This document shows, piece after piece, positions 17,747 through 27,076 of a DNA stretch of 64,000 nt. The stretch comes from Microcaldota archaeon (lineage in GTDB: Archaea > Micrarchaeota > Micrarchaeia > Norongarragalinales > UBA8480). Made by a program: the position numbers and the translations under genes. Positions within the stretch are counted from its first letter, which is position 1. Every line of letters starts with the position of its first letter. The notes under the pieces were generated by a model. It worked only from the letters and a program-made list of their open reading frames with translations. It ran no database searches and was not told the DNA's origin. Where the stretch lies: NCBI GenBank assembly GCA_023247085.1, contig JAHFHC010000003.1, forward strand, positions 1 through 64,000, written 5' to 3'.

Positions 17747-18214
17747 TCAAGGTACCACTCTCGGTTTTCCTTGAATTTTCTTTTGTGGGATGAAGTTGGC
17801 AAAGTATTTTGCTGCTTCGCTGTTTAGCGGCGAATACGGATTTGGGTTTTCTAGCATTTGCAGTAGCGCTTCGGCAATGCTTGACAGCGTTTGTGATTCA
17901 GTCCAGGAATTTAGCACTTGAATGCAAACTCGACCGTCTTTTGGCCGGATATTTGGGTGAAATATGTCACTGTCCCAAATTACTTCAATTCCGCCGGCGT
18001 ACGGGTATTCGCGGGTTAAGTAAATTGAAATGTTGTGGCTGTTGATTGGCACAACTGCGTCGCCGTTTTTAGTGTAGCCGCGCCCATTTAGCTTAAAGTG
18101 GTACTCGGTTTTATCCAGGTTAACTTCTAAGTCGGAAATGTGGTTGTTCTTTGAAAGCGAGGCAAATTCGTTGTCTAGCCTGCGCTTCCAAACCCCTTCA
18201 GGTAGCTTTGGCAT
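17747..18214 (-). CDS. E2 ubiquitin-conjugating enzyme homologue
   Basis: The UBC fold is clear. Strands around YHFKLNGRG and NISIYLTREYPYAGG lead to the HPN motif of E2 enzymes (IFHPNIRPKDGR). The catalytic Cys follows in RVCIQVL (C97 from the ATG at 18214). The helix TLSSIAEALLQMLENPNPYSPLNSEA (given here in pieces: SSIAEALLQ, ENPNPYSPLN) is the classic E2 segment. At 155 residues it is a minimal E2. The gene for the Gly-Gly modifier ends 11 nt ahead of the ATG. A TTG at 18229 overlapping that gene is an alternative start. It would receive the modifier from the E1 (21574-22329). Confidence 0.93.
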   Translation of the reverse strand: MPKLPEGVWKRRLDNEFASLSKNNHISDLEVNLDKTEYHFKLNGRGYTKNGDAVVPINSHNISIYLTREYPYAGGIEVIWDSDIFHPNIRPKDGRVCIQVLNSWTESQTLSSIAEALLQMLENPNPYSPLNSEAAKYFANFIPQKKIQGKPRVVP

Positions 18215-18225
18215 AAGTGTTGGCT

Positions 18226-18471
18226 TCAACCTCCTGTTGGGTCTGGCATTAGTAAGAGGGTTTCGCCTTCAGTTACGCCCGCATCTTTAAGCTGTACTTC
18301 TGGAGACAAAATTTTATTGTCTGATGCCTTTGCTAGCACGAACCGGTCTTTTAATTGAAGCGAATCAACCAGCACATCTAGTACAGCTTGAACTGTGAAT
18401 TCGGGTTCAACTGCTAGTGTGATTTCTTTTCCGCTTGTTGTGTGTGAAACCTTTATGTTAAATTCAGCCAT
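18226..18471 (-). CDS. Ubiquitin-like modifier ending in Gly-Gly
   Basis: This is an 81-residue beta-grasp protein. The strands FNIKVSH and KEITLAVEPEFTVQAVLDVL, with a ubiquitin-type helix, are followed by the ILSPEVQLKDAGVTEGETL region, parallel to ubiquitin's LEDGRTLSDYNI part. It ends exactly in PTGG, so the Gly-Gly is already exposed and needs no trimming. The codons for Gly-Gly also spell GGAGGT, a ribosome site for the E2 gene just downstream. Upstream is a short intergenic region shared with the divergent 18557 gene. The ThiS/SAMP sulfur-carrier role is an alternative, but the adjoining E2 and RING genes favour protein conjugation. Confidence 0.92.
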   Translation of the reverse strand: MAEFNIKVSHTTSGKEITLAVEPEFTVQAVLDVLVDSLQLKDRFVLAKASDNKILSPEVQLKDAGVTEGETLLLMPDPTGG

Positions 18472-18556
18472 TTTCTTTCAATAAACGTTTACGGCGCAAA
18501 AGTTTATTATGCTTAGCGACCAGTCTTTTTAACTTATGTGCAGTTGTTACTTAATT

Positions 18557-18826
18557 ATGTCAAAGCCACGCATTTTAGATGTAAAGAAACCCGAAAAAAA
18601 ACCAACTGTAGTTAATATTGAAGAAGACGACTATTCGCGCATTTTAACGCCAGTTGACCCCGTTACACAAAAGTTGCGTGAAGGACAACTAAAAGACGCT
18701 ATTCCACAACAACCCGCATTTTCTCCGCTTGGCCTTGATCCAGAAGTTAGAAAAAAAATTGAAGAAGACCGAAAAAAGAGGCGAGGGTTAGTGGGAGAAG
18801 TCAAAGACGCGTTTGGGGTTAAGTGA
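18557..18826 (+). CDS. Small charged protein in the ubiquitin cluster
   Basis: This 89-residue protein (ATG at 18557) is Lys/Pro/Glu-rich, with a C-terminal helix EVRKKIEEDRKKRRGLVGEV. It appears largely disordered; no domain is recognised. It begins a plus-strand unit with the kinase-like, JAMM and RING genes, 3 nt ahead of the kinase-like gene. Its exposed lysines could make it a substrate, but that is only a guess. Confidence 0.6.
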   Translation: MSKPRILDVKKPEKKPTVVNIEEDDYSRILTPVDPVTQKLREGQLKDAIPQQPAFSPLGLDPEVRKKIEEDRKKRRGLVGEVKDAFGVK

Positions 18827-18829
18827 GAG

Positions 18830-19591
18830 ATGCCGCTTGAATGGAAAACAACCAAATTGCTTACGCTGAACGGGCGCGTAACTGTCACTCACTGGAAAAA
18901 GCACTCACCACGTGCCTTGCTTGCTGCACTTGAAAGTGAACCATTAAAAAAATTTCCCAGATCCACTCCGCCTGTTTGGTTTCATAAGTTTGCTGGTCAA
19001 ACCGTTGTCGTCCGAGCTACTGCGCCGCACGGATTATCTCACCCAATTCTCGGTGGTACAGAAATTGAATGTATGCCGCCAAAGCAAATTTTTGAAATTC
19101 TTAAGGAGTTAGCAGAAAAAAAAGCAGCGTTTGTTGAAGTGCCTGTTGCTTTGATTGAGGGAAAAACCTTTCACGCGGTAGTTACTCTTGCTAAGCCGCA
19201 CCGCGCTTCGCTTCAAGAGGTATTATCCGCTGACGATGTTTCTGAATTTAAAAAACAGGCGTTGGCAGTAAAAGCGATTAAGTTGTTTGCCCGTTTAAAC
19301 GCGCTTGGGTATAAACATAATCATCCCGACCCGGTAAATGTAGTTGTTATGAAGAATGACGGAGTTAGGTTAATTGATCCAACTTTACTTGAGCGCTTTC
19401 CAAAGGAGGGGCCGTGGCGTATAGAAAGTATAGATTCTCGCGCAAGATTGTTGCAACCATTTATGAACATTTGGCTTAGAAACCACCCTGGGCAGGATTA
19501 TCCAATAGAACATTTGCATGGCTTAATACGTGAGCTGGATTCAGCGTACCATACCGAATTTAAGCGGGTTAAGGCGAAACAACGTGTTTGA
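18830..19591 (+). CDS. Kinase-fold-like protein in the ubiquitin cluster
   Basis: This 253-residue protein has features of the C-lobe of a protein or small-molecule kinase. ALGYKHNHPDPVNVVVMKNDGVRLIDPTL mirrors the catalytic loop plus DFG-like strand of RIO/APH-type kinases (quoted in parts: HNHPDPVNVVV and VRLIDPTL). Here Asn/Pro replace the usual HxD residues and DPT replaces DFG, so it may be inactive. The N-lobe is weak. It overlaps the JAMM gene by 8 nt, implying coupling. It might be a scaffold or recognition subunit of the modification system. Family membership is inference. Confidence 0.6.
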   Translation: MPLEWKTTKLLTLNGRVTVTHWKKHSPRALLAALESEPLKKFPRSTPPVWFHKFAGQTVVVRATAPHGLSHPILGGTEIECMPPKQIFEILKELAEKKAAFVEVPVALIEGKTFHAVVTLAKPHRASLQEVLSADDVSEFKKQALAVKAIKLFARLNALGYKHNHPDPVNVVVMKNDGVRLIDPTLLERFPKEGPWRIESIDSRARLLQPFMNIWLRNHPGQDYPIEHLHGLIRELDSAYHTEFKRVKAKQRV

Positions 19592-20057
19592 CATTTACAT
19601 TCATGCTAGTGCAGTGCAAAAAGCTGAAGAGTACTTTTCTGTGTTAGCGGCTTCAAAATTAGAGGGGTTAGGGCTCTTGGTCGGCAGCAATTTCGAATAC
19701 GAGGATGCTAATTATTTGCAAATAGTCGATTTTATAACTGGCGAGACAAACTCTTCGGCTGTTTCAGTGAGTTTTTCCAAACACGCATTTGAGAAACTAG
19801 CCGGCGACTTAAAAGAACGTGATGAAATTGTGGTTGGCTGGTGTCATTCTCACCCAACTTATGGTTGCTTTTTATCCGCCACTGATGTAAATGCGCAGCG
19901 TAGTTTTTTTAATGAAGATTTTCATGTTGCCGGCGTGTTTGACCCAATGCGCAAAGAAGATTTCGGCAGCGTAAATGCAATGGCGAAGCGTTTTTACAGG
20001 TTGACTGATAAGGGGTATAGGGAAGTTTCGTTTGCGGTGGTAAAAGATGTCAAGTGA
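19584..20057 (+). CDS. Rpn11-like JAMM deubiquitinase homologue
   Basis: An MPN+ domain makes up nearly the whole 157 residues from the GTG at 19584. The zinc-protease signature is complete: E27 (KLEGLGLLVG), H88 and H90 in HSHPTYGCFLSATD, S98 and D101. The sequence around it resembles eukaryotic Rpn11/CSN5 more than bacterial JAB proteins. Such enzymes cut isopeptide bonds at the modifier's Gly-Gly end. The modifier here needs no C-terminal trimming, so deconjugation is the likelier job. It overlaps both the kinase-like gene (8 nt) and the RING gene (11 nt). Confidence 0.93.
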   Translation: MFDIYIHASAVQKAEEYFSVLAASKLEGLGLLVGSNFEYEDANYLQIVDFITGETNSSAVSVSFSKHAFEKLAGDLKERDEIVVGWCHSHPTYGCFLSATDVNAQRSFFNEDFHVAGVFDPMRKEDFGSVNAMAKRFYRLTDKGYREVSFAVVKDVK

Positions 20058-21018
20058 GTTACAAACTATAAATTCCAATAAGCCCAATGCCGTAAAGTCG
20101 GTTGGAGAAAAGGAAAAACAAAGTACAGCCAAGCCAATTTCAACGACCCCGTCGGCGCAATCCACCGCTGAAGAAAAACCTATTTCAACAGAGAAAAAGA
20201 AGCGCGGCCGCAAACCAGTTTTTAAGCCAACTCAGTTTGACTTGGATTTAATTCATTTAATTCGCGAAGGGGCAACTTCAACTGATGAGTTATTGTATGG
20301 TTTAGGAGTAGCGCGTTCTGAATTAATTCAACGTTTAGATTTATTAAAAACGGAAAATTTAGTGGCAGAAGAAAAAGACGGTGCAAATTTGCAGTTTGGG
20401 TTAACTGTAAACGGGTATAATTTTTATGCTTCTAAAGGGGCGAAAAAAGTCGGCCTCAAAAAATCTTTTTCTGGCGAAGTAAAGTTATACAAGCATAAAC
20501 AAATTGAAAAGCACGACGCGATGCCAGTGCAGGGGCAGAAGCACGTTAATGATTTTCTTTCGTCAACTGAGGTGGTTGACCTTGGGGGAAAATTAGGTAG
20601 GATGGATTTAGAGGAAATAATAAAACGCTATGGCCCGTCAAGCGAACAAAAAGATAAGTTCTTGCGTCAAAAAGCAACCGAGATCAACCAGGAAAAAAAG
20701 CAGGTTCAACCACAAATCCAGCGCCCAGTTCAGCAACCGACGCTTGCAAGTCCAATTGCTGCCGCGCAACCAGTTGCAGGCAATGTAAATTCTTCCGACA
20801 TTTGTGATTTGTGCAAATCGGATTTCAAGATGTCGATGAATAATCCCGAGCTAGCAAAATACGGGCATTGTTTTTGCGGTGCAGCTTACCACAAGGAATG
20901 TTACGATTCGCTTCTTTCAGATAACGCCAAGTGTATTCGTTGTGGCAAAAAATTATTTTTGATTGTAGATAAACAAAGTCGAGAGGCAATAAGTGGGTTA
21001 AGGGACGCGTTTGAATAG
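20047..21018 (+). CDS. RING-type E3-like protein with winged helix
   Basis: This 323-residue protein has three parts. Residues 1-60 are disordered and Lys/Ser-rich. A winged-helix-like part spans about 65-130 (FDLDLIHLIREGATSTDELL, LKTENLVAEEKDG). After a Gln/Pro linker, a C-terminal RING of the C4HC3 type occupies about 255-305: CDLC, then CFC with H in AAYHKEC, then CIRC. RING domains position E2 enzymes on substrates. The start overlaps the JAMM gene by 11 nt. The wHTH could recognise DNA or a protein partner. Together with E1, E2, modifier and JAMM it completes a eukaryote-like set. Confidence 0.85.
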   Translation: MSSELQTINSNKPNAVKSVGEKEKQSTAKPISTTPSAQSTAEEKPISTEKKKRGRKPVFKPTQFDLDLIHLIREGATSTDELLYGLGVARSELIQRLDLLKTENLVAEEKDGANLQFGLTVNGYNFYASKGAKKVGLKKSFSGEVKLYKHKQIEKHDAMPVQGQKHVNDFLSSTEVVDLGGKLGRMDLEEIIKRYGPSSEQKDKFLRQKATEINQEKKQVQPQIQRPVQQPTLASPIAAAQPVAGNVNSSDICDLCKSDFKMSMNNPELAKYGHCFCGAAYHKECYDSLLSDNAKCIRCGKKLFLIVDKQSREAISGLRDAFE

Positions 21019-21087
21019 AAGTGCTTAATTCAGGTTTTCATTCTTATGCCCGAAAGCCTTTTTATTTAAAAAAGGTGTTGCACTTAC

Positions 21088-21561
21088 ATGGTTTCAAAAA
21101 TTTCAAGGTTATCTGCAATTAGAAAAGCAATCCGCTGGACTAGAAATGGAGTTGACTGGCATTTTCACTTATTATCCCCTGGCTGTTTGTATAACTCAAC
21201 TCGCGAGCATGAATTGTTCCTAGAGTCGAAGTTTGGGGCATTTGTTGCGCGCTCTTGGCGCTCGTTGGTAACAATTGCAAAACATTTGCTTCATTTATTA
21301 GAAAAACGAAATGTGAAACGAGTTTCTGCTTCTTCTGCACTTGGAATAGGGAAAGTTTTACTTCAAGCAAAGCATTTGAATGACAAGAAAATCCGCTGGC
21401 ACCACCATTTGCTTTACCCACATTGTGTGCTGAACAAAAAGCGCGGCAAATGGGCTATTATTTTTGAAGACCCGCTGAACAACAAAGTTACTGAATTATT
21501 TTACTCCAGTTATCCCGGCAAAGATTTGAATAAATTAGAGTTACTTTTTTACAAGCAATAA
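21088..21561 (+). CDS. Unknown protein with two Trp-His-His repeats
   Basis: I do not recognise this 157-residue basic protein. It contains an internal duplication: VDWHFHLLSPGCLYN near residue 25 and IRWHHHLLYPHCVLN near 105, each preceded by a helix and followed by a strand ending FES or FED. The paired His and Cys residues at matching places could bind a metal. It sits between the RING gene and the convergent E1 gene, inside the ubiquitin region, with its own short upstream gap. The function is unknown. Confidence 0.6.
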   Translation: MVSKISRLSAIRKAIRWTRNGVDWHFHLLSPGCLYNSTREHELFLESKFGAFVARSWRSLVTIAKHLLHLLEKRNVKRVSASSALGIGKVLLQAKHLNDKKIRWHHHLLYPHCVLNKKRGKWAIIFEDPLNNKVTELFYSSYPGKDLNKLELLFYKQ

Positions 21562-21573
21562 TTTTAGTATTAG

Positions 21574-22329
21574 CTAATGCACGGGGCAACTGTTTCTCTT
21601 TTCAATTGTGAATATGTTTGTTTGTCCAGTTAGCCCGTTGTAAAATGTGTATTTTCCAGCCAAAGTCGTTCCAGTTTTTAGTATTAGTTTAACGAATTCA
21701 TTTACTTGCATGCCTGCAATGACGCTTGTTGTTGTTGGCAACGCTGGCATTTTTGGGTCTATAATATCGAGCATTTCTCCTACGCACGAGTATTTTTTCC
21801 ATAGCAAACCATAGTCTTGTTTTGACAATCCACATTCGAGACAAGCGGCTGGTGCTTGCACTACTTGCAATTTACCGAGAAACCCGCTTGTGCCGCCGTC
21901 AATTAAGATGACTTTGCCATAACAATTTGCATTAACGTGCAGCCGCGCCCCTAAATTATCTAGACAGCCGAATACAGCATCAAAACCAGAGAAAAATTTA
22001 TCGTCAAGTGCCTCAACGTTTTTTATAATTGGGGTTACAACCGCCGCTGGATTGAGTTTTTTAGCTGCGAGACTGAGCGCTTCGGCTTTTAGTGCCTTGT
22101 TTTCTGCATCGTTTTGTGTAAATAACAGGCAGCGGTTTAAATTTGCTTTGACAACTGTGTCGAAGTCAATAACAGTAAGCTGGCAAACGCCTAGTTGCAG
22201 CAAATTCTTAGTCACTTCATTGCCTAATGCGCCAGCGCCGACAATACAAACCTTGGCACTCGCGATTTTTTCTTGATTCCAACCCGCAACGCGCTTTTGC
22301 CGATCAAACTGGTCATCATCTACATTCAT
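21574..22329 (-). CDS. E1-like activating enzyme (ThiF/UBA family)
   Basis: The adenylation domain is complete. The nucleotide loop is VCIVGAGALGNEV (residues about 27-39), VIDFDTV binds the ribose, and NLNRCLLF supplies the arginine. The AVFGCLDNLGARLHVN helix and VILIDGGTSGF follow. A CLEC pair (C163, C166) and the later KRNSCP fit the structural zinc of the family, and C182 in KKYSCVGEM is a candidate thioester Cys before PTTTSVIAGMQVNE. At 251 residues it is MoeB-sized. It would adenylate the Gly-Gly modifier and pass it to the E2. It lies 24 nt downstream of the Nre gene on the same strand. Confidence 0.9.
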   Translation of the reverse strand: MNVDDDQFDRQKRVAGWNQEKIASAKVCIVGAGALGNEVTKNLLQLGVCQLTVIDFDTVVKANLNRCLLFTQNDAENKALKAEALSLAAKKLNPAAVVTPIIKNVEALDDKFFSGFDAVFGCLDNLGARLHVNANCYGKVILIDGGTSGFLGKLQVVQAPAACLECGLSKQDYGLLWKKYSCVGEMLDIIDPKMPALPTTTSVIAGMQVNEFVKLILKTGTTLAGKYTFYNGLTGQTNIFTIEKRNSCPVH

Positions 22330-22353: not shown

Positions 22354-23505
22354 TTAAAAATCCGTCAACTTGCGCTGTGAAAGTACTCTGCTTGTTGTGG
22401 TGTATTGTTCAATTGGTCGCTTTAATCGCTTTTTTAGTTCCTCTATTAATTCATCGCGCGTTTCAAACGTCCTTGGCTTATTCTTTAGCGCAGCGCGGCA
22501 ATTTTCACGAACCTGGAAAACGCCCAAGGGTACTTGGTATTCGTCGCTTATTTCACGTAGAACGATTGTTCGCGCTTGGCGTTGTATTTTGTACAGGTGT
22601 TCAACGCAGGCTATTCTTCCAGCGTAGTACCCGCCGCCTTCTCGCGTTGCATAGGTTGTTCTTCCTTCAAAGGGTTCGTACTCGTACTCCATTTGTTTTG
22701 CTTTAGCTGCCCAGAAGCTGTTTGGTTCCCATGATTCAAATTGTTCAAATTCCCAAGTGCCGGGAATAAATACGATTTCAAAGTGGTTGCCCATCCATGT
22801 GTTACTGTGAAGTTCGATGTCACTAATTGTCCGAAATTCGCGTACATCAGTTAATAGTTGTTTTGCAATTAAGTCGTCTGCGGCAGTTATTGACCAGCGC
22901 GTTGGTACTAGTTTTTTTTCAATGCCGAGTGCGCCACTTGACAATGCTCTTTGTAAGTAATATGTGTCTCCAAAAAATTGAAACCCTTCGTGTACTGCGG
23001 TTGCCACGGTTATTTTTTCTTGTACAAGTGAAATTACTTTTCGCGGGATTGACGGGTTATCTGCCAGGGTGAATTTTTCCATTTTGCCGCTCGCGCCCAT
23101 TGGCGGCAAGTACGTGGAAAAATTAACTTGCTGGAATGGCTCCCTTTCAAAGAAAACCTCCATGTCAATTGGCTTTAGTGAAAGCGCAGTGTCTTGCAAA
23201 TCAAGTGACATTCGGTTATTTGAATTTTTAACATTCAAAACAGACTCGCCACGCGCTAATGACAGTCGATGTTCAACTATTTTTTCCAAGCTAAGCCCAT
23301 ACCATTTTCCAGGCGAGTCGCTGTCGGTTATCTGCTCGCTTATGCCGACCATTGGGCCAGCGAATACGTTTGGGTAATTGTATTTGCCTATGAAAACGCT
23401 TGAAGGAGATTTGCCAAACACGTTCTTCGGAATACGCTTTGAAAACAACGGCTTCAAATTAGCTTCAATTTGTTTGTACAGTGGTGTTGAATTCAAGGTA
23501 TTCAT
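22354..23505 (-). CDS. Archaeal Nre DNA-repair protein with PCNA-binding tail
   Basis: The 383 residues match the archaeal Nre family. VFIGKYNYPNVFAGPM near the N-terminus, the HEGFQFFGDTYYLQ block, WEPNSFWAAKAKQMEYEYE and GGGYYAGRIACVEHL are family features. The last residues, QRKLTDF, form a PIP box for binding PCNA. NreA proteins act in the response to DNA damage. The gene is the first of a two-gene unit with the E1 homologue, so repair and protein modification may be co-expressed. Unlike some homologues it shows no N-terminal Cys4 zinc motif. Confidence 0.9.
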   Translation of the reverse strand: MNTLNSTPLYKQIEANLKPLFSKRIPKNVFGKSPSSVFIGKYNYPNVFAGPMVGISEQITDSDSPGKWYGLSLEKIVEHRLSLARGESVLNVKNSNNRMSLDLQDTALSLKPIDMEVFFEREPFQQVNFSTYLPPMGASGKMEKFTLADNPSIPRKVISLVQEKITVATAVHEGFQFFGDTYYLQRALSSGALGIEKKLVPTRWSITAADDLIAKQLLTDVREFRTISDIELHSNTWMGNHFEIVFIPGTWEFEQFESWEPNSFWAAKAKQMEYEYEPFEGRTTYATREGGGYYAGRIACVEHLYKIQRQARTIVLREISDEYQVPLGVFQVRENCRAALKNKPRTFETRDELIEELKKRLKRPIEQYTTTSRVLSQRKLTDF

Positions 23506-23735: not shown

Positions 23736-24890
23736 ATGGAAGACGTTTTTATTGCAAAGGAAAAAATGCTTTCTACTTTAGGTTGGAACGAAAACCCCTT
23801 TGTAAAAGACTTGCGTTTAAGCGAAAAAGGCGAATTCCTTAAATATTACTGCCCGCTAGATGCGGCTAAGGTATTGGAGAAACTAGCGTTTGATGCTAAA
23901 GCTTGTCTTTTACTTGGGCCAAAGGGAGTTGGTAAAACTTCGGCACTTTACTACATTTGTTATTCGCTTCCAGAAACATTTGAAAAAGTAATGTTCAAGG
24001 AGCCGCCAGCTGACTTAAACGAATTAGCTGACCAGCTTGGGTTTAACCGCACAACCGGAATAGCATTTATCCCTTTTCTTTCACATAAGCGTGACGTGTC
24101 GCGCCAAGAGCTTTCTCGTTTTCTACGTGGAAAAACCAGCGAGAAGAAAATGGTTATGTTCATTGATGAAGCTCAACTTGGCCCAGAAATGTACATGGAA
24201 TTCAAATACTTGCTTGATGATGTTCCAAACTTGCGCATTGTATTCTCTGCACTTGACAAAAGCAAGTTTCCGGATTCGTTGCTTCATTTAATTGGTACAA
24301 GCAATGTGTTCAGTCGTGCTAAATTCACTTGTGATGAAATGACTGAGATAATTAGACACCGCATAGTGTCAGTTGGCGGAAAAAATTTACAGCCATTTGC
24401 AGATAAAGTTTTGAAAACCGTTTTATCTGAACAAAACTTGTTGTCTCCGCGGTACGTATTTGATGAGCTAAACACGCATCTCGCTAAACTGGCACTTGGC
24501 GAAGAAAAAACCGCACCATATGCAGATGACCTGCTTATTCAAAGTGCTATTCAACGTAGTCGCGAACAGCCGCAATTAACTGATTATAGTTTTACAACTA
24601 GTCATGCTCCGTGGTGGATGATGTTATCTCCCTCTCAAAAAGCAATTTTATCGCAATTGATAAGTGGAGAGGGTATGTCTTTATCTGATTTAATGACTCG
24701 AACCGGCTTAACGCAGAACACTGTGTTCAATGCATTGTACCAGTTGCGCGGCGACGATGATGCTGAAAAAGAACGTAAGCCAGAAGTCCCTTTTCCACTT
24801 GTAATGGCAAAACAGCAGTTTGTTGGAAAAAGAAAAAAAAACTTGTATTTTTTGAATAACAAAATTAAGAATTTATTAACGACGCATTGA
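23736..24890 (+). CDS. AAA+ ATPase with C-terminal winged helix
   Basis: This 384-residue P-loop ATPase has Walker A in LLLGPKGVGKTSALYY (about 57-72) and Walker B in MVMFIDEAQLG (about 138-148). A sensor-like IVFSALDKSKF follows. The N-terminal LGWNENPF phrase is typical of the archaeal ATPases related to Orc1/Cdc6 and ExeA-like families. Residues about 295-345 form a winged helix (LSPSQKAILSQLI, GLTQNTVFNALYQL). The size and domain order resemble Orc1/Cdc6, but the usual initiator motifs are not convincing. It could be an origin-binding protein or a DNA-dependent ATPase of another kind. Confidence 0.75.
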   Translation: MEDVFIAKEKMLSTLGWNENPFVKDLRLSEKGEFLKYYCPLDAAKVLEKLAFDAKACLLLGPKGVGKTSALYYICYSLPETFEKVMFKEPPADLNELADQLGFNRTTGIAFIPFLSHKRDVSRQELSRFLRGKTSEKKMVMFIDEAQLGPEMYMEFKYLLDDVPNLRIVFSALDKSKFPDSLLHLIGTSNVFSRAKFTCDEMTEIIRHRIVSVGGKNLQPFADKVLKTVLSEQNLLSPRYVFDELNTHLAKLALGEEKTAPYADDLLIQSAIQRSREQPQLTDYSFTTSHAPWWMMLSPSQKAILSQLISGEGMSLSDLMTRTGLTQNTVFNALYQLRGDDDAEKERKPEVPFPLVMAKQQFVGKRKKNLYFLNNKIKNLLTTH

Positions 24891-25057: not shown

Positions 25058-25132
25058 TTTTTTAAGCAACGTATGCCGGAAATCAGGGGTGGTTTCTGCA
25101 TTTGTGTGCATATATATTTAGGGGGGAAAAAT

Positions 25133-25360
25133 ATGGTGGGTATCGATAATGATAGGTTTTCGTTGTTCGACATGGATAATATCCTTCGAACAGCCGGTGC
25201 AGAGCGAATAGATGAGCGCGCTAGCAAGAAATTACGCGAATTACTAGAGGATTCAGCTTCAGATATAACTCTAAAAGCAAAGATACTTTCAAGGCATGCT
25301 GGACGCAACAACGTTACGCCTGAAGACATTCGGTTAGCCGCACAACAAATCAGGACATAG
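25133..25360 (+). CDS. Archaeal histone (first of two)
   Basis: This 75-residue histone-fold protein has MDNILRTAGAERIDERAS as helix 1 and loop, then LRELLEDSASDITLKAKIL as the long helix. The closing RHAGRNNVTPEDIRLAAQQI contains the conserved RxTxxxxD-type end. It wraps DNA as a dimer or longer polymer. The ATG at 25133 follows GGGGGGAAAA; an upstream in-frame ATG at 25073 would add an unlikely Cys-rich leader. The N-terminus (VGIDNDRFSLFD) is unusually acidic compared with HMf-type histones and with the second histone at 40777. Confidence 0.92.
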   Translation: MVGIDNDRFSLFDMDNILRTAGAERIDERASKKLRELLEDSASDITLKAKILSRHAGRNNVTPEDIRLAAQQIRT

Positions 25361-25636: not shown

Positions 25637-27076
25637 TTAGTCTAGCTTTACTTCTTCGCCTGAGAGTTGCTTGTGGATAATACCTGCGCATTTTAGTAGA
25701 AATTCATTTAGCGATCTTTTTTCAACACTTGCGCCTGCTGCAACTTTGTGCCCGCCACCAGTGCTTTTGCCAAGGTCTTTGCATGCTATTCTAAGCATTT
25801 GGTTTAAATCTAATCCCTTTTCAATGAGTTCATTTGTTCCTCTAGCTGATATTTTTAACATTTCGTGATCATCTTCGTCAAGCGAAAGCGCGATTATGGG
25901 CTTAGTTGACTGAACTAAGTTCGCTAGTGTTGCGCCTGCAACTGTGCCAATTATACTGTCCTTCACTTGGCCGCGTAAATCTAGCAAGTAAAATTCGCCT
26001 GCGTCGCTTAGCTTATGTTTGGCAAGCGTCATTCCGCTGCGTAAGTTTTGTCTATGTGCTTGCATTATTTCCATTGCTTTTTTGCGGCTATCCGGATTTT
26101 TGAGGCAAGCCCCAACCCCGGTTTGTGCTTCGTTGTTTCTACCGCATGCATTCATAACCACTGAAAATTCATGGCTGTCAAAAAAGGGGGTGCCTGGTTG
26201 TTCGTTATTGAATAAGTAAACGTCACCGATCATTTTGTCAACTGCTTTTTCCGCCATTCCGTTTGCCAAACAATGTTCGATTAATGCGCTTGAGAGCCGC
26301 TTGCGGTCGTCTTCTTGTAATTCATAATAAGAAACGTACTTGTCGTTTTGCTTGTATGGGATTTCATTTTCAGCTAAGAACTGCGCGCAGTTTTTGTCGT
26401 TGCCAGTTAAGCCCGGTAAAAATGGGTCACTTGCATAGCTTAGAAACCCAATTAAGCTTCGGCTACTTCTACCGAAAATGCGCAAGTCTTTTTTTACAGT
26501 TGTTATTCCTGCGTCAACTGAGTCTTTCAAAATAAGTTTGTTTACTCCAATTAACCCCGCGCGGTCTTGCATGTCCCCCACTGTTGAAACAAGCGCAAGT
26601 TGTGATAGCTCTGGAAATTCTCTGAAACAAAGATAGGATGTTCCACCGCCGCATGCTTCGTTGCCACCATCTATGCCAAAATCGTGCGGATTGACAATAG
26701 TTATGTTGCTGTCAGCTGGTCGTTGGTTAACTGGTGTTTCGGGCTCGTGGTGGTCGAGAATAATGATTTCTCTATCTGGCAACGCTTCTGCTAATTTGGA
26801 AGTGTACCCTGCCCCAAGGTCACAAAAAACTATTTGCTTGAACGTAGTTTCTTTTAGTTTTTGCAAGTATTCTGGAGTAGTTTTCTTCCAGCATTGCATA
26901 GCTGGAGCAATTCCGTTACGGTACATTGCGCTGAAAACAATTGAACCAGCTGGTATCCCATCTGCGTCAAAATGGTGCACGATCACAGCATCGTCGAACT
27001 CACGTATCCGCTTCCCTGCAACTATGCATGCTTTGAAAAAGCCAGTTTCGTCTCGTTGCTTTTCAATCTCAGTCAT
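25637..27076 (-). CDS. DHH-family phosphoesterase (RecJ/GAN-like)
   Basis: This 479-residue protein has the DHH domain in HHFDADGIPAGSI (residues about 33-45), VFCDLG and the name-giving IILDHHEPETP (about 105). The DHHA1 domain toward the end contains STGGGHKVAAGAS. This is the archaeal RecJ-like group, which includes the GINS-associated nuclease and single-strand exonucleases of repair. The motifs for two metals are intact. A second, shorter DHH protein lies at the window end. The gene converges on the ASCH gene with only 7 nt between them. Confidence 0.88.
   Translation of the reverse strand: MTEIEKQRDETGFFKACIVAGKRIREFDDAVIVHHFDADGIPAGSIVFSAMYRNGIAPAMQCWKKTTPEYLQKLKETTFKQIVFCDLGAGYTSKLAEALPDREIIILDHHEPETPVNQRPADSNITIVNPHDFGIDGGNEACGGGTSYLCFREFPELSQLALVSTVGDMQDRAGLIGVNKLILKDSVDAGITTVKKDLRIFGRSSRSLIGFLSYASDPFLPGLTGNDKNCAQFLAENEIPYKQNDKYVSYYELQEDDRKRLSSALIEHCLANGMAEKAVDKMIGDVYLFNNEQPGTPFFDSHEFSVVMNACGRNNEAQTGVGACLKNPDSRKKAMEIMQAHRQNLRSGMTLAKHKLSDAGEFYLLDLRGQVKDSIIGTVAGATLANLVQSTKPIIALSLDEDDHEMLKISARGTNELIEKGLDLNQMLRIACKDLGKSTGGGHKVAAGASVEKRSLNEFLLKCAGIIHKQLSGEEVKLD

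Follow-up and report, generated by a model that had tools for sequence, protein, structure and literature searches.

We analysed a 64,000-nucleotide stretch (hereafter the window) of contig JAHFHC010000003.1 from a Micrarchaeota genome (assembly GCA_023247085.1) and found that a 4.6 kb cluster within it (17747-22329) carries one copy each of genes for a ubiquitin-like modifier, an activating enzyme (E1), a conjugating enzyme (E2), an Rpn11-like JAMM metalloprotease and a putative ubiquitin ligase (E3) with a winged helix and a RING-like zinc finger. We read the locus with high confidence (a probability of roughly 0.87) as a minimal ubiquitin-type pathway, in which an E1-E2-RING cascade would conjugate the modifier and the JAMM protease would reverse the reaction. 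Judged from sequence, this DPANN order has a real and conserved ubiquitin-type system that looks complete and is best described as a variant of the Caldiarchaeum and Asgard kind with an unusual winged-helix E3 candidate. The host genome (892,562 bases in 36 contigs, 92% complete) belongs to the order Norongarragalinales of the Micrarchaeota (DPANN), in agreement with an initial annotation, made from the DNA letters, that had proposed the five components in a small DPANN-type genome. The order is o__UBA8480 in GTDB and includes Candidatus Norongarragalina meridionalis, whose type genome is LFW-144_1.

Table 1. Components of the ubiquitin-type cluster and their positions in the window
Component	Coordinates	Strand	Features
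Ubiquitin-like modifier, 81 amino acids	18226..18471	-	C-terminus PDPTGG; Gly-Gly codons 18229-18234, stop 18226-18228
E2-like conjugating enzyme, 155 amino acids	17747..18214	-	HPN 86-88, catalytic Cys97 (codon 17924-17926)
Rpn11-like JAMM metalloprotease, 157 amino acids	19584..20057	+	Glu27, HSHP-x6-SxxD (H88, H90, S98, D101)
Putative E3, 323 amino acids	20047..21018	+	Winged helix ~63-134 and C-terminal C4HC3 RING-like zinc finger 253-299
E1-like activating enzyme, 251 amino acids	21574..22329	-	Single ThiF domain; likely thioester Cys182 (codon 21784-21786)

All five open reading frames delimited in the initial annotation were confirmed. From high to low coordinates they run E1 (-), RING (+), JAMM (+), modifier (-) and E2 (-); with genes on both strands, the locus is a bidirectional cluster, not one operon. 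The E2 start that is conserved among relatives is the ATG at 18214, and the reading frame scanned against Pfam ran 17747-18229. Because the contig is syntenic with those of relatives on either side of the cluster, a binning accident is excluded for this locus.

The three enzymes were recognized by curated domain models. The E2 matched Pfam UQ_con at 65.3 bits (cut-off 27; 5.9e-18), and H86, P87, N88 and C97 were invariant in 24 orthologues, bearing out the HPN motif and catalytic cysteine noted at first. The order's E2 profile found UBE2H (7e-19) and UBE2A (4e-18) as its top matches. The JAMM protein, the sole PF01398 match in the host genome, scored 40.4 bits against Pfam JAB (cut-off 22.5; 2.9e-10), with Glu27, His88, His90, Ser98 and Asp101 invariant in the order, and the corresponding profile matched Rpn11 (2.8e-22) ahead of Caldiarchaeum Rpn11 (1.5e-19) and CSN5. 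The E1 reached 161 bits against ThiF (cut-off 28.1; 3.1e-47). The E1 and Rpn11-like assignments of the initial annotation hold. In the order, the E1 arginine motif RQKR, the NLNRC motif and Cys182 were invariant, the last being the likely thioester cysteine, and CxxC (163/166) and CxxH (248/251) are probable zinc ligands. Furthermore, this E1 has the signatures NLNRC and YSCxG, which recur in further ubiquitin-type E1s of archaea. Those of Asgard archaea, Calditenuaceae and Thermoplasmatota pair NLNRC or NLSRC with an SCxG-type motif, whereas yeast Uba1 has Gln at the position of the signature's Cys.

Next, we considered the modifier. An AlphaFold model built from 22 orthologues (predicted local distance difference test score, pLDDT, 82.6) has a predicted ubiquitin fold, and its first matches were ubiquitin chains (Foldseek 1.6e-6, template modelling score ~0.82, 33% identity; Z 13.6), with Caldiarchaeum ubiquitin at rank 10 among the Foldseek matches. 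Its mean pairwise identity in the order, 66.5%, was the highest of the measured parts (E1 56%, E2 50%, JAMM 47%). In a profile alignment, Lys15 and Arg43 correspond to ubiquitin Lys11 and Arg42, and Lys53 falls at or beside the position of ubiquitin Lys48, the gap placement being ambiguous. The Gly-Gly end had been reported in the initial annotation and was confirmed here as the tail PDPTGG, in which Pro, Asp, Pro and Thr occupy the positions of ubiquitin Leu71, Arg72, Leu73 and Arg74. A Leu73-to-Pro change makes eukaryotic ubiquitin resistant to many deubiquitinases. Eighteen of 24 orthologous modifiers end exactly at Gly-Gly and the other 6 carry extra residues, suggesting that the JAMM protease may also mature a precursor in some species. 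The first proposal, that an exposed Gly-Gly leaves the JAMM protease to act in deconjugation, is reasonable for the window but may not describe its whole role in those relatives.

These results also bear on a rival explanation, in which the modifier works as a MoaD/ThiS/Urm1-like or SAMP-like sulfur carrier that a MoeB-type enzyme activates, and conjugation is absent or incidental. The E1 is a single ThiF-type domain matched by MoeB and ThiF models, and archaeal SAMPs combine sulfur-carrier and conjugation roles. However, the E1 lay far under the NCBIfam equivalog cut-offs for MoeB (83.3/376.6 bits), UbaA (72.9/450) and ThiF (91.9/275), and the order's E1 profile scored nearer to UBA3 (120 bits, 1e-33) and SUMO UBA2 (117 bits, 1e-32) than to MoeB (94 bits, 1e-25). 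Co-conserved with the modifier are a JAMM protein and an E2 whose HPN and Cys are intact, and the fold of the modifier matches ubiquitin chains before any other. In addition, the host genome encodes a separate ThiS-family protein (78 amino acids, ending YGG, contig C27) and a second ThiF/MoeB-like enzyme (contig C16), which in a motif comparison had neither an NLNRC-type nor an SCxG-type motif. With a carrier and an enzyme of this kind already present, a role in sulfur transfer alone, which the initial annotation had named as a competing outcome, is unlikely, and we consider the sulfur-carrier explanation as a whole very improbable.

To place the locus in its lineage, 301 Micrarchaeota genomes were searched, 29 of them Norongarragalinales. 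The E2 occurred in 26 of the 301, all within the order, and was absent from all 272 other genomes. Within the order we found the modifier in 26 genomes, the E1 in 25, the JAMM protein in 27 and the full RING protein in 26, with all five genes together in 24 of 29. Every component was present in each of the eight genomes that were at least 90% complete, and completeness is 61-79% in the five that lack one or more components. Outside the order, the RING-protein profile matched winged-helix fragments only, and the zinc finger never, in the phylum genomes searched. A single gene order and orientation, over 3.0-5.7 kb, was kept in 20 genomes (19 relatives and the window), and this arrangement together with the co-occurrence in 24 of 29 genomes indicates that the set is not a product of chance. 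One genome (G011, family f6; 79% complete) was without all five components, the only such genome in the order above 70% completeness, which may mean that one family has lost the entire system.

We also examined whether the locus could serve in defence, as do the bacterial Bil and CBASS systems of E1/E2 type, both of which employ E1, E2 and JAB parts. PADLOC models gave weak matches for the E1 (3e-14, to part of E1-E2 fusions), the E2 (2e-3) and the JAB domain (1e-5), but these are at the level expected from general homology, and the modifier and the RING protein matched nothing in PADLOC 2023, a release for which the presence of Bil models is unconfirmed. Furthermore, nearly all genomes of the order have the locus, in a fixed place beside housekeeping genes, whereas defence islands are patchily spread. 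A defence function therefore seems the least credible of the explanations considered.

The fifth protein is an unusual E3 candidate. Its N-terminal half was modelled as a confident winged helix (pLDDT ~89-97 over residues 61-130) that resembles ArsR/Lrp/MarR domains by fold. Its C-terminus carries a C4HC3 finger with the spacing C-x2-C-x18-C-x1-C-x4-H-x2-C-x10-C-x2-C, and all eight zinc ligands (C253, C256, C275, C277, H282, C285, C296 and C299) were invariant in 21 orthologues. The initial annotation had called this a RING-CH protein; the C4HC3 finger stood, the RING-CH assignment did not, and the winged helix had gone unmentioned. In RING-CH (RINGv) domains, also C4HC3 fingers, the fourth Cys is separated from the His by about seven residues. 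All orthologues have four residues here, and RINGv was not among the Pfam families listed for the window protein or the finger. When the C-terminal 75 residues were searched alone, Prok-RING_1 was matched in 20/20 members and zf-RING_2 in 18/20 (best E 2e-4). In the Protein Data Bank, nine of the ten matches of the finger profile were RING proteins, nearly all of them E3 ligases (best E 0.013), including AMFR/gp78, Pirh2, TRIM32, EL5, RNF24 and RNF4. Since C1, PHD and Rubicon-type fingers were also among its family matches, the finger is probably, rather than certainly, a RING. Profile searches had been set beforehand as the check on this domain, and the support they gave was collective, from the finger profile together with the invariant ligands, with no curated cut-off reached in the window protein. 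Winged-helix matches filled the full-length Foldseek search, so the zinc finger was not tested by it. Cullin winged-helix matches (E 0.12-0.85) and an NSE1-type zf-RING-like match (0.14 at best, in 4/20 members) were too weak to use.

With moderate to good confidence, these comparisons suggest that the fifth protein is the system's E3. It could instead be a transcription factor or adaptor that neighbours an E1-E2-JAMM conjugation system. Its winged helix is like DNA-binding ArsR/Lrp/MarR domains, its finger stays under the RING cut-offs and touches other zinc-finger families, and the Thermoplasmatota clusters described below have E1, modifier, E2 and JAMM genes with no RING-like gene nearby. 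The invariant zinc ligands, the placement of the gene beside the JAMM gene wherever the order has an intact cluster and the RING families and E3 ligases matched by the finger argue the other way, and we regard a role other than E3 as unlikely.

Taking the locus as a conjugation pathway, we propose the following sequence of steps. The modifier would be synthesised with Gly-Gly already exposed; the E1 would adenylate it with ATP, hold it as a thioester on Cys182 and hand it to Cys97 of the E2. The winged-helix/RING-like protein would then bring the charged E2 to substrates and promote transfer to lysine. The JAMM protease would take the modifier off again and, in a few relatives, also trim a short C-terminal extension. 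Once tagged, proteins could be regulated, or passed to Cdc48 and the 20S proteasome; the host genome has two 20S subunit genes and a gene for a 713-amino-acid, two-domain Cdc48-type AAA ATPase. Several observations weigh against this pathway. No PAN-type proteasome ATPase scored above cut-off in the 92% complete host genome, and the single modifier's sequence matches to ubiquitin families were weak, below the Pfam cut-offs. The window protein missed all curated Pfam RING cut-offs (zf-RING_2, 12.6 bits against 27.3), and its gene varies more than the other four (24-35% identity to every relative except one).

Among the closest described counterparts is the ubiquitylation operon of Caldiarchaeum subterraneum, which encodes E1, E2, a small RING protein, ubiquitin and Rpn11; this homologous set has been reconstituted and works in vitro (PMC5654768, PMC6043591). 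The window has the same five component types, including an Rpn11-like JAMM protein and a ubiquitin-fold modifier, and its E1 signature NLNRC occurs in the related Calditenuaceae. Unlike Caldiarchaeum, the host belongs to another phylum, its modifier needs no precursor cleavage, its genes are arranged bidirectionally and its E3 candidate is a 323-amino-acid winged-helix/C4HC3 protein in place of a small RING protein. In three Calditenuaceae loci, modifier and E2, separate genes in the window, form one reading frame (L092 7602-8423, L093 7749-8570, L123 7587-8417). The two are joined just after Gly-Gly, so that their release would call for a JAMM cut.

An E2-alignment scan returned 252 related stretches, and loci were compared in the best 80, where most stretches from outside the order were of Thermoplasmatota. 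E1, modifier, E2 and JAMM occurred together in ~33 Thermoplasmatota loci and two Desulfurococcales loci, and a RING-like neighbour only at Lokiarchaeal loci and one Desulfurococcales locus. The Thermoplasmatota stretches (L083-L132), many of them from Methanomassiliicoccales, commonly carry the E1-modifier-E2-JAMM cluster, and we found no report of such clusters in the open-access literature. They have the same four components and E1 signatures as the window and a similar modifier tail, mostly PDPEGG compared with PDPTGG. In contrast to the window, their genes share a strand and mostly run E1-modifier-E2-JAMM, and no RING-like gene stands within the fetched flanks. Lokiarchaeal loci (L079-L082) likewise have adjacent JAMM, E1 and E2 genes, and nearby proteins have zinc-finger C-termini of similar pattern, to which the finger showed a weak profile-profile link (probability 72%). 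Unlike the window, these JAMM-E1-E2 genes are all on one strand, the E2 is 32-37% identical to that of the window, and the zinc-finger proteins (~350-370 amino acids) have hydrophobic N-terminal parts. Tandem genes of this type lie just past the cluster (L079 9079-11379, L080 9086-12470), and their products are candidate membrane E3s. The eukaryotic system has in common with the window the ubiquitin fold, an E2 with HPN and active Cys, an Rpn11-type JAMM, a UBA-type adenylation domain and the aligned lysine and arginine of the modifier (Lys15/Arg43); the single 251-amino-acid E1 domain, the PDPTGG tail and the single gene copies set the window apart. The trees against Caldiarchaeum, Asgard and eukaryotic homologues suggested by the initial annotation answered in part. 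The order formed one group in the E1 tree (Shimodaira-Hasegawa-like approximate likelihood ratio test, 92), and Thermoplasmatota stood apart in both the E1 and E2 trees. The deeper placement of the E1 was not resolved, nor was that of the E2 relative to Asgard, Aigarchaeota and eukaryotes, the E2 being a short protein and the eukaryotic branches being long.

Other genes lie within and beside the cluster. Three reading frames inside it (18554-18826, 18830-19591 and 21088-21561) were not counted as system parts because they have no counterparts outside the genus. That at 18830-19591, between modifier and JAMM, looks kinase-like by eye (GYKHNHPDPVNVVV...LIDPTL); it matched no Pfam family and lacks a counterpart in the relatives searched. 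The one at 21088-21561, between RING and E1, encodes 157 amino acids, gave no family match and has two tandem homologues in a same-genus genome (L033 3772-4838). Adjoining the cluster is an archaeal Nre protein (22354-23505) that ends in QRKLTDF, a PIP-box-like sequence, followed by an AAA ATPase (23736-24890), an archaeal histone (25073-25360) and a RecJ-family nuclease (25637-27076). These genes stand beside the cluster in most relatives too and form a stable DNA-repair/chromatin neighbourhood. Because the locus is stably linked to the Nre, histone and RecJ-family genes, we considered whether the winged helix directs the E3 to DNA or to proteins bound there, with chromatin, replication or repair factors as the targets of tagging. 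This idea is tentative and we rate it as doubtful. If it were true, then together with the Thermoplasmatota clusters it would mean that an E1-E2-JAMM core is old and widespread in archaea, and that different lineages gained their E3s separately.

In PMC5654768 and PMC6043591, complete E1-E2-RING-JAMM sets are reported from no archaea other than Caldiarchaeum/Aigarchaeota and the Asgard group, and they serve as evidence for how eukaryotes acquired ubiquitin. Two papers on Norongarragalinales (PMC8561730, PMC12892359) do not mention ubiquitin, and we found no report of it in Micrarchaeota or DPANN in the open-access literature, a scope outside which supplementary tables may hold an earlier notice. 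On that absence of reports rests the expectation, voiced in the initial annotation and upheld here, that a full set in such a lineage is notable. Furthermore, the architecture of the E3 candidate was not described for archaeal ubiquitin systems in PMC5654768 or PMC6043591. Each step has a single gene, and in most species the modifier would need no maturation, which makes this a very small natural set for reconstitution. The set is kept across almost the whole of a small-genome DPANN order, and no E2 was found in the other Micrarchaeota searched. This indicates that a ubiquitin-type pathway reaches beyond the eukaryote-related branch, into a lineage where none had been expected, and earns its place even in a genome of ~0.9 Mb.

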